This document shows, piece by piece, positions 21,440 through 26,368 of a DNA stretch of 64,000 nucleotides. Made by a program: the position numbers and the translations under genes. Source of the DNA: Pseudoselenomonas ruminantium (GTDB taxonomy: Bacteria > Bacillota > Negativicutes > Selenomonadales > Selenomonadaceae). Location: the NCBI GenBank assembly GCA_015058655.1, contig SVBX01000007.1, positions 62,001-126,000 on the forward strand, written 5' to 3'. Position 1 is the stretch's first letter, and each line of letters starts with the position of its first letter. The notes beneath the pieces were generated by a model, which saw only the letters and a program-made list of their open reading frames with translations, did not search any database and was not told where the DNA came from.

Positions 21440-22762
21440 TTAAATATTGCGGTCATGACCTGCGCCGAAGCGGACGAAATGCAATTTGCCGCTGGCTTTG
21501 ATAATCAGAATATCCCAGAGCTCCTGGCTTGCTTCCCCTAAGACTCTGGCAGGAGTGAAACTGCCCTCTACTTTTCGCTCAGCCATATCCTCGCATTTGG
21601 CACAGCCTATAGAAACAACAGGAAAAGTCTGTTTCCCTTGCCATTGGTATACAAAATCTGCATGAGCGTGGCCGTGAATGTAGGCCAGGATTTGCACTTT
21701 GCTATTGTCCAACGCCTTTAGCAATAAATTGCCGTTGCGTATTTCCTCTGACCAAGGGTCAAGCTCCGGCAATGGGGCATCATGGGAGAAAAACAATATG
21801 CGCCAGCCTTCTGGCATGTCCTTAAGAGTCTCCCGTACCCAGTCAATTTGCGTAAGGTCAAAGCCGTACCTGGGACTGGCCCCATTATCATAGGCACTGA
21901 GGTACAGGCATCGTAGCTTCTGCTGCGGGCAATCGACATAGTAGTATGTCTTGTCCCTGTCCTGTTTCCACTTTTCTGCACCTTCATGATACAACGCCGC
22001 CTGCTCATGGAGGGACATCACATCAGGATTGCCGTGGAAATAGTTGGCATCGTGATTGCCCAGCACAATATGCACAGGTACTTCCAGCTTGTGCATATCT
22101 TTTAGCATGGATTGCACGTAGCGACAGGTCAGCCATCGTGAAACTGTGCCATCGGTGAGATCCCCCAAGTGGACGAGCCCATCCAGTCTGGTCTTTTGTT
22201 GCAAGGCCAGCAAGTTCGCTGCTGTATCCTGCCATGTGCCATTAACGGTCATGTGAGTGTCCGCAAGTATGACCAAGGCCAAATCTCCCGGCTCACGCAA
22301 GGTATTGATGCGATTCCCTACACGTTCCACTTCTTGCTCAAATACACAAGACTGCCTTTTTTCTACAGTGGAGGTGAATATCAGGGTGCTGCTAAAGCCC
22401 GCTGCTTCCTCTGCCGTGATGTTTTCCCCATCTGCCCGCCTTGCCGCTACCCGGAAGTAACAGCGTCCCTTGAAGATGTATTTGTCCATGCAATAGGAAT
22501 CTTCCCGAAGGTCACCCCTGTAGGTGCCCCAGATTTGTTCCGGGGCGTAGTCGTAGGTGTGCAGATATTTTTCTGGAAATTCCAAGGAGTAGGTAGCTAC
22601 TGCGAAACGGTAGCGAGAGTCCTTCAGTTCCAAGCTACTGCCGACCTCTGCCAGATAGAAGCCCTCTGTAGCCAGCCTGCTTGGCACATTGCACATAAAG
22701 AAGCCGGTCTCAGACTGCAGTGTTGCACATGCTGTGAACAGTAATGGTATAAATTTTGGCAT
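21440..22762 (-). CDS. Calcineurin-like metallophosphoesterase
   Basis: 440 residues from ATG 22762 (GGAGG 8 nt upstream, in a TGATG overlap with the previous stop). The C-terminal half has all metallophosphoesterase motifs: LADTHM, HLGDLTDG, GNHDAN, FFSHDAP and GHAHAD, which bind two metals. Residues 1 to about 190 are a beta-rich N-domain without a recognised family. No export signal is clear. The substrate is unknown; in this setting, removing phosphate or phosphodiester groups from the glycan or a lipid carrier is possible. Confidence 0.85.
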   Translation of the reverse strand: MPKFIPLLFTACATLQSETGFFMCNVPSRLATEGFYLAEVGSSLELKDSRYRFAVATYSLEFPEKYLHTYDYAPEQIWGTYRGDLREDSYCMDKYIFKGRCYFRVAARRADGENITAEEAAGFSSTLIFTSTVEKRQSCVFEQEVERVGNRINTLREPGDLALVILADTHMTVNGTWQDTAANLLALQQKTRLDGLVHLGDLTDGTVSRWLTCRYVQSMLKDMHKLEVPVHIVLGNHDANYFHGNPDVMSLHEQAALYHEGAEKWKQDRDKTYYYVDCPQQKLRCLYLSAYDNGASPRYGFDLTQIDWVRETLKDMPEGWRILFFSHDAPLPELDPWSEEIRNGNLLLKALDNSKVQILAYIHGHAHADFVYQWQGKQTFPVVSIGCAKCEDMAERKVEGSFTPARVLGEASQELWDILIIKASGKLHFVRFGAGHDRNI

Positions 22763-25383
22763 CACCCCAGCCTCCTGAGGACTTCTTCTTTGACCTTTTC
22801 CCCGCAGGTACCATCGATATTTTTGGCAAGCTCCGACCAATATTTTCGTTGCTTATCCCTATCATGTACTCCGCTTGTCACATATTCAATATACTGGCTA
22901 ACAGAACGGCACACCCTGTGCTCATCTGTAGCATATGGAATGTCTTTTCCCATACGCTCAAAGGTTTGTCCAATGGGCGTTGGCCAATTCTTGACCTGTT
23001 CCTCCGTCAGGCGACAAGGAATTTCTTTGTAAGTAAGAGTACGGAAGTCGTACCAGTACAAGCGGTTGTCAATGGTGAACTGTATAGCCCTCCCCGGCAA
23101 GTCCTCGTTCCAGGGACGATAGCCAGGTATCCACAGGCCGCCAAAACTGGTAAGGGGGCTTTGCTGCATAAAGAAGTTAGTTTTTCTCTCTGCCCAGCCA
23201 AAGGGCAGACCCAAATCCACCTTTTCCAGCTTTTTCTTTGCCATATTCAGGCGCATGGCTATGTTGCTAAAGCAAGGCAGAAGATAAACATAGCCATCGA
23301 GCCTTACAATGCTCGAGAATTTGTACTGACTCTCAAAGTCCCACCAGTCTGTCTGGCACTGGTACCCCATCGGGTAATCATCCATGGTCAGCACTTCACA
23401 TTCCCCTGTATGTGTATCCCAACGGCGAATTTTTTCCGTTCTCCAAGGGAACAGCCAGTAGATGCCAGAACCATAGGATTCCTCCACCATGCAACAGCAA
23501 TCTGTGTCCTCAGGTCCAACATCCTGCCAGGAATAATCTCCCGTGGCCAAATCAAAGGTCATAACCTTATTAGACTGAAGGGCTGAGATGTATAGGAGAT
23601 TGGGATACTTAATCCAGGCTGTGCCCCCTATAAGCTGCATATGCTCAGCTGTGATAGTAGGCAGGATTTCCTTTAAAAACTCACGATAATAAGTCAGTTC
23701 ACCTGTATGCTGATCCAGCCGAATCATGGCCTGGTAGCGGGAGGGCATGAAGTACAGGTAATGCTCGTACTTTAGAATGCCTCCAAAGTTCCCGCCTTCC
23801 AGCGGATTTTCGTAAGAAATATCCTTACGTTCTCCCGTTGTTACATCATATATACAGATGGTCTTGGCACTGTCGGGAGAGAAATAAAATTTCCCATCAT
23901 CCTCATCCCGCATAAAGGTGCTGTACATTTTGCTGTCTGGAGTGTTGCCGAAATCCAGCAATGTCTCTATGTCACCTGTCTCCCAGTCCAGCCTGCAAAA
24001 TCTTTTATAATGCGATGCCAGGAAATAGCTTTGCTTCATATCCTTGTCTATAATATGGGCACCAATTTGCAATGCCCTCTTCTCCTCCATGGATGGCTCC
24101 TGCCATAAAGTGTAATCGCCCGAGAAGAAAATAGGCTTGCCCGCATAGCCAAACAAGCTGACCACCGAGGAAGTGGCCTCCCCTAAATAGGCATCAGACA
24201 CAGCCATGGTCATCTCCAGATCTGGTGTCTCATCGAAAATGCCTATCTGTTGGAAAATATACCGATTTTTAATCTCCATGTACTCATCGTAAAGAGCGGG
24301 ACGCACAGACTGTATGCAGGACTCCATAAGAGGATGTGGCCGCCAAATAAGTGCCACTTCCGGATGTCTTTGGAAGGTGCCGAAGATGTAGCGCATCTTC
24401 TTCAAGAAGCGCTCGCCTTGCTGAAGAATGCCGGAAATGCTGGTATTGTAGAAGATAACCTTCCGACCACCTATATAATCCAGCCACTCCTGCGGCACGT
24501 TGGGATGCTTTTCGCAGTAGTAAATCCTGTCTATCTTGGGTGACCCCAAGGCCAGAATTTTTTCTTTAGGCAGAAAATCATCAAAGTAGGGTTCCTCCCC
24601 TTCCTTGATTTCCGAAAAGCGCATAGGCGCAATCTGCATATGCTCCTGCTGCACCACCATAAAATCCATGTACTGATACACTGAGCCAGTCGCATGCTGC
24701 TCTGGCCAACGACGTCCCACAACAAAATAAGGCACATAAACCAACAAATCTGTATGTGGCCTTAAATTAAAAGAGTACATACTGGAGTCCAAAGACGTGG
24801 CAGAATTGCAGTTGTCGTACGGATTGTGAGTAAAAATCACCTCTGGATGCATAGCTTCCAAATTCACGGACTGCCAATCCAAAGTAGGCACATCTTTAGG
24901 GAACAAATTTCTCTCACAGTGCCATTCTTTAGCTGTCCCATCAGGATTTCTGTCACAATATGGAACAGGTATTACATAGGCAATACAGTTCTCCTTATCC
25001 TCATCAGCTGCCCGCCAGATGCTTTCCAAACTATCCCACATAGAAGCTTTGTAAGGGATGAATACCATCTCTTTTTTGAACTTCGTTTCCTTCTTAGTCT
25101 CTGTCACGATATGCTGCAAAAGTTCTTTGCAAAGAGAAAGTATCTCCTGGGTATCATTCCCAGACTCCCCAGAGAGAATCTGATTGAAGGCCATAATGAG
25201 ACCATCATAAACCTCCCCATACTTCTCATAAGCAGTCTGGGGCAGTCCCTTTTTGCACAGTGTCTGTGCTTCCTTCATTCTCTGCAAAAGAGCATGAGTA
25301 TCTCGAAGATTTCCCTTCGACACCATTTCGAGGGCTACGTAGGTGCTTTTCAGTTTTGATAAAAGTCGTTGCTGTATAGCCAT
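22762..25383 (-). CDS. TagF-like N-domain fused to a C-terminal beta-propeller
   Basis: 873 residues. Residues about 100-420 contain GT-B glycerophosphotransferase-like strings: ILALGSPKIDRIYYC, VIFYNTSISGIL, ALIWRPHPLMES, and AVSDAYLGEATSSVVSLFGY. Residues about 430-800 hold repeated blades of the form R-x-D-x-x-T-G-(D/E): DWETGDIETLLDFG, YDVTTGERKD, LDQHTGELTYY, FDLATGDYSW and WDTHTGECEVL. No close characterised homologue is known to me. The ATG has GAGGG 8 nt upstream. It is the first gene of a run with the metallophosphoesterase, fusion and GDPD genes, below an unusual upstream region. Confidence 0.7.
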   Translation of the reverse strand: MAIQQRLLSKLKSTYVALEMVSKGNLRDTHALLQRMKEAQTLCKKGLPQTAYEKYGEVYDGLIMAFNQILSGESGNDTQEILSLCKELLQHIVTETKKETKFKKEMVFIPYKASMWDSLESIWRAADEDKENCIAYVIPVPYCDRNPDGTAKEWHCERNLFPKDVPTLDWQSVNLEAMHPEVIFTHNPYDNCNSATSLDSSMYSFNLRPHTDLLVYVPYFVVGRRWPEQHATGSVYQYMDFMVVQQEHMQIAPMRFSEIKEGEEPYFDDFLPKEKILALGSPKIDRIYYCEKHPNVPQEWLDYIGGRKVIFYNTSISGILQQGERFLKKMRYIFGTFQRHPEVALIWRPHPLMESCIQSVRPALYDEYMEIKNRYIFQQIGIFDETPDLEMTMAVSDAYLGEATSSVVSLFGYAGKPIFFSGDYTLWQEPSMEEKRALQIGAHIIDKDMKQSYFLASHYKRFCRLDWETGDIETLLDFGNTPDSKMYSTFMRDEDDGKFYFSPDSAKTICIYDVTTGERKDISYENPLEGGNFGGILKYEHYLYFMPSRYQAMIRLDQHTGELTYYREFLKEILPTITAEHMQLIGGTAWIKYPNLLYISALQSNKVMTFDLATGDYSWQDVGPEDTDCCCMVEESYGSGIYWLFPWRTEKIRRWDTHTGECEVLTMDDYPMGYQCQTDWWDFESQYKFSSIVRLDGYVYLLPCFSNIAMRLNMAKKKLEKVDLGLPFGWAERKTNFFMQQSPLTSFGGLWIPGYRPWNEDLPGRAIQFTIDNRLYWYDFRTLTYKEIPCRLTEEQVKNWPTPIGQTFERMGKDIPYATDEHRVCRSVSQYIEYVTSGVHDRDKQRKYWSELAKNIDGTCGEKVKEEVLRRLG

Positions 25384-25443
25384 CTAAATAGCCCTCTCTG
25401 CTCGAATTTATAAAGTAACTGGTGTAATCTCTGACACGATAGG

Positions 25444-25515
25444 TGCGGACGGGAATCCCCCTTCCACCGTCTTCGACGGTCCCCCTTCCCCGTGAACGGG
25501 GCAGGCTGGGGTGTG
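25444..25515. repeat. Dispersed hairpin-rich repeat, variant copy
   Basis: It contains CCCTTCCACCGTCTTCGACGG, where ACCGTCTTCGACGGT is palindromic, followed by CCCCGTGAACGGGGCAGGCT, a second hairpin. It is a looser relative of the CCTTCCCCTCAAGGGGAAGG repeats elsewhere. It lies about 60 nt upstream of the 873-residue gene and has no ORF. Confidence 0.6.
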
Positions 25516-25545
25516 CTGGCGGATGGATACAATCTTATACTAACT

Positions 25546-25562
25546 CATACTATCTTAGTATG
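25546..25562. promoter_or_regulatory. Candidate operator palindrome
   Basis: CATACTATCTTAGTATG is a perfect 7-bp inverted repeat around TCT. It lies 11 nt from the phased TGCACCC array, within the upstream region of the 873-residue gene. Its form suits a dimeric DNA-binding protein, but no regulator is identified. Confidence 0.45.
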
Positions 25563-25573
25563 CCTTTTGGTTA

Positions 25574-25643
25574 TGCACCCAATTTGCACCCAAATGCACC
25601 CTTTTGCACCCGGGTGCACCCAAAATGCACCCTTTTTGCACCC
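25574..25643. repeat. Seven TGCACCC boxes spaced by one helical turn
   Basis: TGCACCC (GGGTGCA on the minus strand) starts at 25574, 25585, 25595, 25605, 25615, 25626 and 25637. Steps are 10 or 11 bp, averaging 10.5, so all copies face the same side of the helix. The 3-4 nt between boxes alternate among AAA, TTT and GGG types. It sits between a truncated paralogue and the full-length gene and could be a cooperative protein-binding array. Confidence 0.8.
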
Positions 25644-25684
25644 AAGGAGAAAAGCTGTCATAGTTTTCTCCTTAATGTTGATAC

Positions 25685-26368
25685 TTAGGCGCATTTCCCA
25701 AATTTGGGATAATCCCCGAAGCCCCTTATTTCAAGGGGTTTCGGGCATGAACCCAATTCTCGGATTTGTATCGAATTGTTGTAAAATTGATTGCAATTAT
25801 CATAAGGATAATGGAAGAATATTGCATCAGGATGCATATGCTTTAAATCCACTTCCTGCCAGTCCAGCGTGGGAATCTCCTCAGGAAAGAACTCCCTCTC
25901 GCAGTGCCACTCTTTGGCAGTCATATCCGGGTTTCTGTCGCAATACGGTATAGGTATCACATGAGCAAGGCAGTTGTCCTTATCCTCATATGCAGCCCGC
26001 CACACACTCTCCAAGCTGTCCCACATGGAATACTTGTATGGCAGGAACACCAGTTCTTTTTTGAATTTCTCCTCTTTGGAGGTCTCCATCACAATATGCT
26101 GCAAGAGATCCTTGCAGAGATTCACGATTTCCTGCGTGTCGCTGCCGGAAGCTCCATCGAGCACCTGCTTGATAGCCATGATGAGGCCGTCATAGATTTC
26201 TCCGTACTTGGCAAAGTTGCTTTCCGTCAGTCCCTGCTGGCACAGCGTCCTGGCCTCCACCAGATTGCGATACACGGGATGCATTTTCTGAGGATGAGCC
26301 GATGCTGCCATGTTCATGGTCACATAGGTGGATTTAAGTTTGGATAAAAGTCTGCTTTTAATAGCCAT
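25685..26368 (-). pseudogene. Truncated paralogue of the 873-residue TagF-like/propeller gene
   Basis: From ATG 26368 (AGGTGA upstream) the product MAIKSRLLSKLKSTYVTMNM matches the N-terminus of the 873-residue protein almost throughout: FKKELVFLPYKYSMWDSLES and VIPIPYCDRNPDMTAKEWHC are near-identical. The match ends abruptly at PYDNCN, about residue 200. The last 34 residues are translated from hairpin-rich non-coding DNA, including a palindrome TCCCAAATTTGGGA (25696-25709) and a 13-bp-stem hairpin (25715-25745). The GT-B core and propeller are missing, so it is a broken tandem duplicate. Confidence 0.8.

Follow-up and report, generated by a model that had tools for sequence, protein, structure and literature searches.

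Large serine recombinases (LSRs) place several well-studied prophages inside genes, among them A118 in comK, TP901-1, SPbeta and phiC31, and sequence homology that ends at the crossover dinucleotide is the signature expected of an LSR exchange. Other direct repeats phased at 10-11 bp are the arm sites of tyrosine integrases and the parC iterons of plasmids. In IS1535, of the IS607 family, short direct repeats at 10-11 bp are bound cooperatively by a serine recombinase (PMC6188088).

Here we describe an array of seven GGGTGCA boxes in Pseudoselenomonas ruminantium, located in a stretch of 64,000 nucleotides that we call the window. The array is very probably an internal part of the attL of an LSR mobile element, of which 985 bp are left in the window.

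An array in which only the box is conserved

Read 5' to 3' on the minus strand, the box steps average 10.5 bp (Table 1). All 49 of the 49 box letters are identical across the seven boxes, and the spacers differ (AAAA, TTTT, CCC, AAA, TTT and AATT). These results bear out a sequence-only reading of the window, which had described seven boxes at steps of 10-11 bp, with a conserved box and variable spacers, and a palindrome (CATACTATCTTAGTATG) beside them. The palindrome is partly retained in two other copies of the array, on contig C30 of the same genome (G000) and in genome G162. An eighth GGGTGCA, on the plus strand at 25612-25618, is the palindromic half of GGGTGCACCC.

As a null model, we used 100 first-order Markov simulations of the 64-kb window, with a phased run defined by steps of 9-12 bp. 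Across all 7-mers, the longest phased run reached 2 in 96 simulations and 3 in the remaining 4, compared with the 7 observed. The total of GGGTGCA in the window is unremarkable (14 against 11 expected); it is the clustering and phasing, and not the total count, that are unusual. In relatives, too, the boxes are conserved over the spacers and kept in helical phase, and that only the box is conserved suggests that selection held it at some time.

Two further repeats lie close by. On the minus strand at 25535-25562, AG(A/T)T(A/T)GTAT occurs about three times at 10 bp, with two copies in C30 and G162. For the MITE-like repeat that separates the array from the start of TagF, the genome contains some two dozen similar short matches. 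An Rfam search gave no match, and a literature search with the GGGTGCA box sequence returned nothing informative.

Two copies of the 5' part of a TagF-like gene

The array lies beside a full TagF-like open reading frame (22762-25383, minus strand) of 873 aa, whose protein had no match in Pfam, NCBIfam or PHROGs; a second, truncated 5' copy of the gene is found upstream. The truncated and full copies match at 71% up to TGCAAT (25790 and 24805, respectively). The locus on contig C30 carries the second array of the genome and has the same arrangement of truncated TagF 5' part, hairpin, array and full TagF, its two copies matching at 80% up to TGCAA. The homology of the target copies ends at TGCAA(T) at both TagF loci of G000, and the final T in the window is taken as a chance match. 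Across loci, the 5' third of the TagF-like gene comes in several exchangeable types.

Table 1. Features of the array, the element remnant and the TagF-like gene, in positions of the window.
Feature	Position	Strand	Basis or remark
Inferred integrated-element remnant, 985 bp	24806..25790	-	Runs from the first base past the AA of attL through the AA of attR
Inferred attL crossover dinucleotide AA	25791..25792	-	15 nt before the half-site
attL element half-site TCAATTTTACAACAATTCGATACAAATC	25763..25790	-	Alignment of end copies; R1 match
Terminator-like hairpin CCCGAAACCCCTTGAAATAAGGGGCTTCGGGG	25714..25745	-	Aligned end module
Seven-box GGGTGCA array	25574..25643	-	Boxes 25637-25643, 25626-25632, 25615-25621, 25605-25611, 25595-25601, 25585-25591 and 25574-25580; from 25643 to 25574, steps 11, 11, 10, 10, 10, 11
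Palindrome CATACTATCTTAGTATG	25546..25562	+	7-bp arms, 3-bp centre; adjoins the array
MITE-like repeat, GGGGGACCGTCGAAGACGGTGGAAGGGGG type	25453..25507	.	Between the array and the TagF start
Truncated TagF-like 5' part	25685..26368	-	Host-derived to 25791, then reads into the element
Inferred element-borne 5' part of the full TagF-like gene, ~193 codons	24806..25383	-	
Remaining TagF-like gene, inferred host-derived	22762..24805	-	With the element-borne part, the 873-aa ORF

A conserved end module in Selenomonadaceae

In the window, in C30 and in four further copies (one in G002, one on each of two contigs of G005, and one in G162), the truncated gene enters a (T)TCGATACAAT-like motif and a hairpin of the form CCCGAAACCCCTT-N5-AAGGGGCTTCGGGG. 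The end module is made up of a crossover dinucleotide, a (T)TTGATACAA half-site and a terminator-like hairpin. With R1, a model built from 14 aligned end copies, the module was found in 40 of 189 Selenomonadaceae genomes belonging to 11 genera, and 20 R1 loci were examined; the window match, from a search of its genome, lies at 25698-25794 (E 1.1e-15). Many of these relatives are draft assemblies whose contigs end at these repeats.

The ends sit in sfsA (contig C9 of G005), a serine recombinase gene (G185), a dxs-like gene and intergenic DNA; one breaks a DNA methyltransferase gene between YID and PPY and another an hsdM-like gene between VCD and P, the names methyltransferase, hsdM and sfsA resting on the translations as read. 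Since the module occurs at many unrelated genes, the array is a passenger of the end and not of TagF. The sequence-only reading had proposed to look in relatives for arrays with the same spacing upstream of the same gene. The spacing is indeed kept, with steps of 9-12 bp in other Selenomonadaceae, but the end module is not tied to the same gene.

A motif search of C9 did not find the rest of sfsA, and neither a comparison of the end region with plasmid and phage DNA nor one exact viral pattern search gave a match. Applied to array loci from outside the Selenomonads, R1 yielded only E>0.6; three Clostridia loci with TTTGATACAATC beside a GGGTGCA run (L119, L120 and L152) are therefore not claimed as members.

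Several ends (L303, L304, L306-L309, L318 and L320) are surrounded by variable small genes which, named from their translations, encode macro-domain, SIR2-like, ADP-ribosylglycohydrolase-like, P-loop and PD-(D/E)XK/Rpn-like proteins. Behind the sfsA end of G005 C9 lies an island of ~21 kb (67.9-89.6 kb; L065, L216) whose SNF2 helicase, DEAD/helicase protein and MZB-domain protein may make up a DISARM-like defence set. The island also carries a frameshifted Tn916-type integrase, which we dropped as a candidate because it lies ~20 kb from the array and has no relative in G000.

Among the matches listed for the whole genome collection, GGGTGCA runs are mostly unrelated tandem repeats. Within the same matches, runs at 10-11 bp overlap or follow tyrosine integrase genes in Desulfobacterota and Chloroflexi (L099, L113, L143, L154 and L167), several of them beside a tRNA gene, which we read as a separate use of the box in probable arm sites. 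Many dispersed arrays with 11-bp steps are also found, among the matches listed, in Jannaschia aquimarina (L067, L092 and others) and in Prevotellaceae RUG689 (L093, L114 and L150), those of RUG689 often as inverted pairs.

Intact relatives carry tandem large serine recombinases

In intact relatives, the module is one end of elements of 50-70 kb that carry two tandem LSRs at the other end. Four ends adjoin a 50-residue 5' fragment of the dxs-like gene, and a protein search located a full-length dxs-like copy in the same orientation, at a distance of 17.7 kb in G166 and of 57 kb in G150. The 57-kb stretch of G150 is a prophage, with terminase, tail tape measure and holin genes, and its two tandem LSRs, both with Resolvase, Recombinase and zinc-ribbon domains, adjoin the full-length dxs-like gene. 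The order from the end to LSR1 and LSR2 is also found in G151, G152 and G001, at distances of 51-72 kb, which gives four intact members with LSR genes at the far end.

The nearest named NCBIfam family to LSR1 is CcrB (E 5e-44; 151 bits against a cut-off of 900), and the NCBIfam IS607 scores of the two G150 LSRs are 34 and 42 against a cut-off of 110. The nearest PDB sequences to the LSRs are a conjugative-transposon recombinase and SPbeta YokA, and the nearest phage LSRs belong to gut phages labelled Ca. Heliusvirales (PV036449, PV036454 and PV036412).

The phased array follows one subtype of the recombination site

We mapped the crossover by aligning the DNA upstream of the end with the DNA after LSR2. 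The two target copies of G150, G166 and G001 stop matching at GGA, with GA at the junction; in G152, GGA closes a short separate match, and in G151 a match of 95% over 258 bp at the same position stops just short of it. The two attachment sites thus share only the short crossover sequence, where the homology stops. It follows that attL consists of the host 5' fragment, the dinucleotide and the element half-site, and attR of the element-borne 5' part, the dinucleotide and the rest of the gene.

When the dinucleotide was read by counting 15 nt back from the half-site, 34 of the 37 copies had either GA (21) or AA (13), and AT, AG and TT were seen once each. Phased runs of at least two boxes were found in 13 of the 14 AA-type ends (one of which was scored AT) and in none of the 21 GA-type ends, a strong association and not a formal test, the end copies being phylogenetically non-independent. 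The arrays have from 2 to 9 boxes across copies. GA-type ends instead contain, as judged by eye, single GGGTGCA or GGTTGCA boxes and CGTTTGYAGGGT motifs.

That the array tracks the subtype of the recombination site points to a function in the element. As phased arrays accompany only the AA-type site, they probably bind a protein specific to the element, in ancestors of the window copy if not in the copy itself. An intact AA-type element carrying an LSR of its own was not found, and it is through the shared end module that AA-type ends are connected with GA-type ends.

Proposed origin of the window locus

We propose that an LSR pair recombined the attP of a circular element with an attB inside the 5' third of the TagF-like gene. 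The host's 5' fragment would have been left at attL, and the rest of the gene would have acquired an element-borne 5' part, by which the gene stayed whole. A later deletion would then have removed almost the whole element. In the window copy, the array starts 148 bp inside attL and reaches to 217 bp. With less certainty, an element-encoded protein may occupy neighbouring boxes along one face of the DNA; such a protein could be a directionality or accessory factor, or the repressor of the element. The small HTH/zinc-finger protein phrog_2308, whose gene lies just upstream of LSR1 in several elements, is our guess for a candidate.

The identity of the element is well supported by the end module, its spread over genomes and targets, the tandem LSRs opposite it and a duplicated 5' target part whose homology ends at AA or GA; the functions of the array and of the recombinases are what we infer from sequence. 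The window copy is called a remnant, and not a member with its own recombinase, because a search of G000 for a related LSR gave no match at E<=1e-30. It is most likely a dead remnant, and since no related recombinase gene was found in its genome, the array is probably a relic.

Competing explanations

A variant of this proposal, which we consider unlikely, is that the TagF remnants of ~970 bp are minimal mobile cassettes, moved in trans by the LSRs of resident phages, which swap the front third of genes and in which the array would be the platform for a new LSR accessory or directionality factor. It fits the near-equal sizes of the remnants at three places (985 bp in the window, 963 bp in C30 and 960 bp in G162), which pure decay does not predict unless one deletion was shared. 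It also fits the swapped 5' types of G000 and G162: the window host fragment is 86% identical to the element-borne part of G162, and the window element-borne part is 76% identical to the G162 host fragment, where the other pairings reach 62-65%. The swap could be explained by gene conversion between related loci as well as by mobility in trans. If the cassette reading were true, a half-site, a hairpin, a phased array, a promoter region and a new 5' third would make up the whole cassette, and surface-polysaccharide-type genes would be the targets of front-third swapping.

The sequence-only reading had favoured a cooperative binding array for a regulator or architectural protein upstream of the TagF-like gene; as a regulatory array of that gene, the seven boxes would be bound by a regulator upstream of the promoter. 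Cooperative binding is retained as the best guess for the biochemical role, but we regard transcriptional control of this gene as improbable. The array does lie 191-260 bp upstream of the ATG at 25383, with phased and conserved boxes, and such arrays precede TagF-like genes at both G000 loci and in G162. However, in G185 and G186 the module with phased boxes sits at unrelated places; in G003, the full-length TagF gene of the proS/TagF locus is preceded by a degenerate end module without an array; and the presence of the array follows the site subtype and not the gene.

Very improbable, and already contradicted as the whole story, is repeat growth with local duplication only, in which the array would come from slippage and the truncated TagF from an ordinary partial duplication. 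A share of this account holds. Since TRF detects a 31-bp repeat of 1.9 copies in the array region, the array probably grew in part through duplication of a three-box unit; the number of boxes varies between copies, and TagF 5' types are shuffled between loci. Nevertheless, the unconserved spacers mean that the array is not a simple slippage repeat, and slippage, which the sequence-only reading had kept as its alternative, fails as the sole origin. In addition, the homology stops at the same sequence in two loci, and the same half-site and hairpin are found in unrelated genes.

It is extremely improbable that the boxes are arm-type sites of a tyrosine integrase or that they are the subterminal repeats of a transposon of the IS607 type. 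GGGTGCA runs do lie beside tyrosine integrase genes in other phyla, a serine resolvase and a TnpB gene adjoin the C30 copy, and IS1535 TnpA binds four helically phased 9-bp motifs (PMC6188088). Yet tandem LSRs lie opposite the end module in the elements that have it, the crossover at the junction is a dinucleotide, TnpB is not present at the window locus, and G150, as far as read, is an intact element with LSRs as its only recombinases.

Implications

Read as part of an LSR element, the array becomes a marker for a family found in 40 of the 189 Selenomonadaceae genomes. The family yields attL half-sites, AA and GA dinucleotides and matching tandem recombinases, which are of use for prophage annotation and may provide new integrase/site pairs. 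A gene hit by one of its elements stays whole, because the element supplies a spare 5' part, and its arrays raise the question of whether some serine recombinases use a helically phased accessory array.

Comparison with known systems

The arm sites of tyrosine integrases and parC iterons are, like our array, direct repeats at about one helical turn. No tyrosine-integrase gene or, in an unsystematic look for ParR/ParM, parC-associated gene was recognised beside the Selenomonad ends, and none of the window, C30 and G162 loci has a tyrosine integrase gene beside the array; on contig C4 of G005, such a gene lies ~2 kb from the array, beyond a TnpB gene. The IS607 family differs in recombinase class, target and end structure, and the intact elements were read without an IS607 TnpA; an IS607-family transposon was rejected on the Recombinase and zinc-ribbon domains of the G150 LSRs and on their IS607 scores below the cut-off. 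IS607 ends and tyrosine-integrase arm sites had been our first working ideas and were dropped once the intact relatives showed LSRs.

The Ccr cassette chromosomes (SCCmec and the Enterococcus cassette chromosome, PMC6222049) likewise have LSRs in pairs, and LSR1 matches the CcrB model. The match remains far below the family cut-off, the target genes are others, and G150 is a prophage; an SCC/Ccr cassette chromosome was rejected on the failed cut-off.

The closest systems are the prophages placed inside genes by LSRs, which have in common with the intact relatives the LSR domain set, the dinucleotide crossover, the prophage gene order and the integration inside genes. The window copy differs from them as a remnant of 985 bp without a recombinase. 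The Selenomonad element differs in that the target gene remains whole thanks to a spare 5' part which the element carries, and its AA-type ends differ in carrying a phased array, a feature not seen in the phage records compared. Two traits of this family appear to be new: its phased box array goes with a single site subtype, and the target gene has its front third exchanged.
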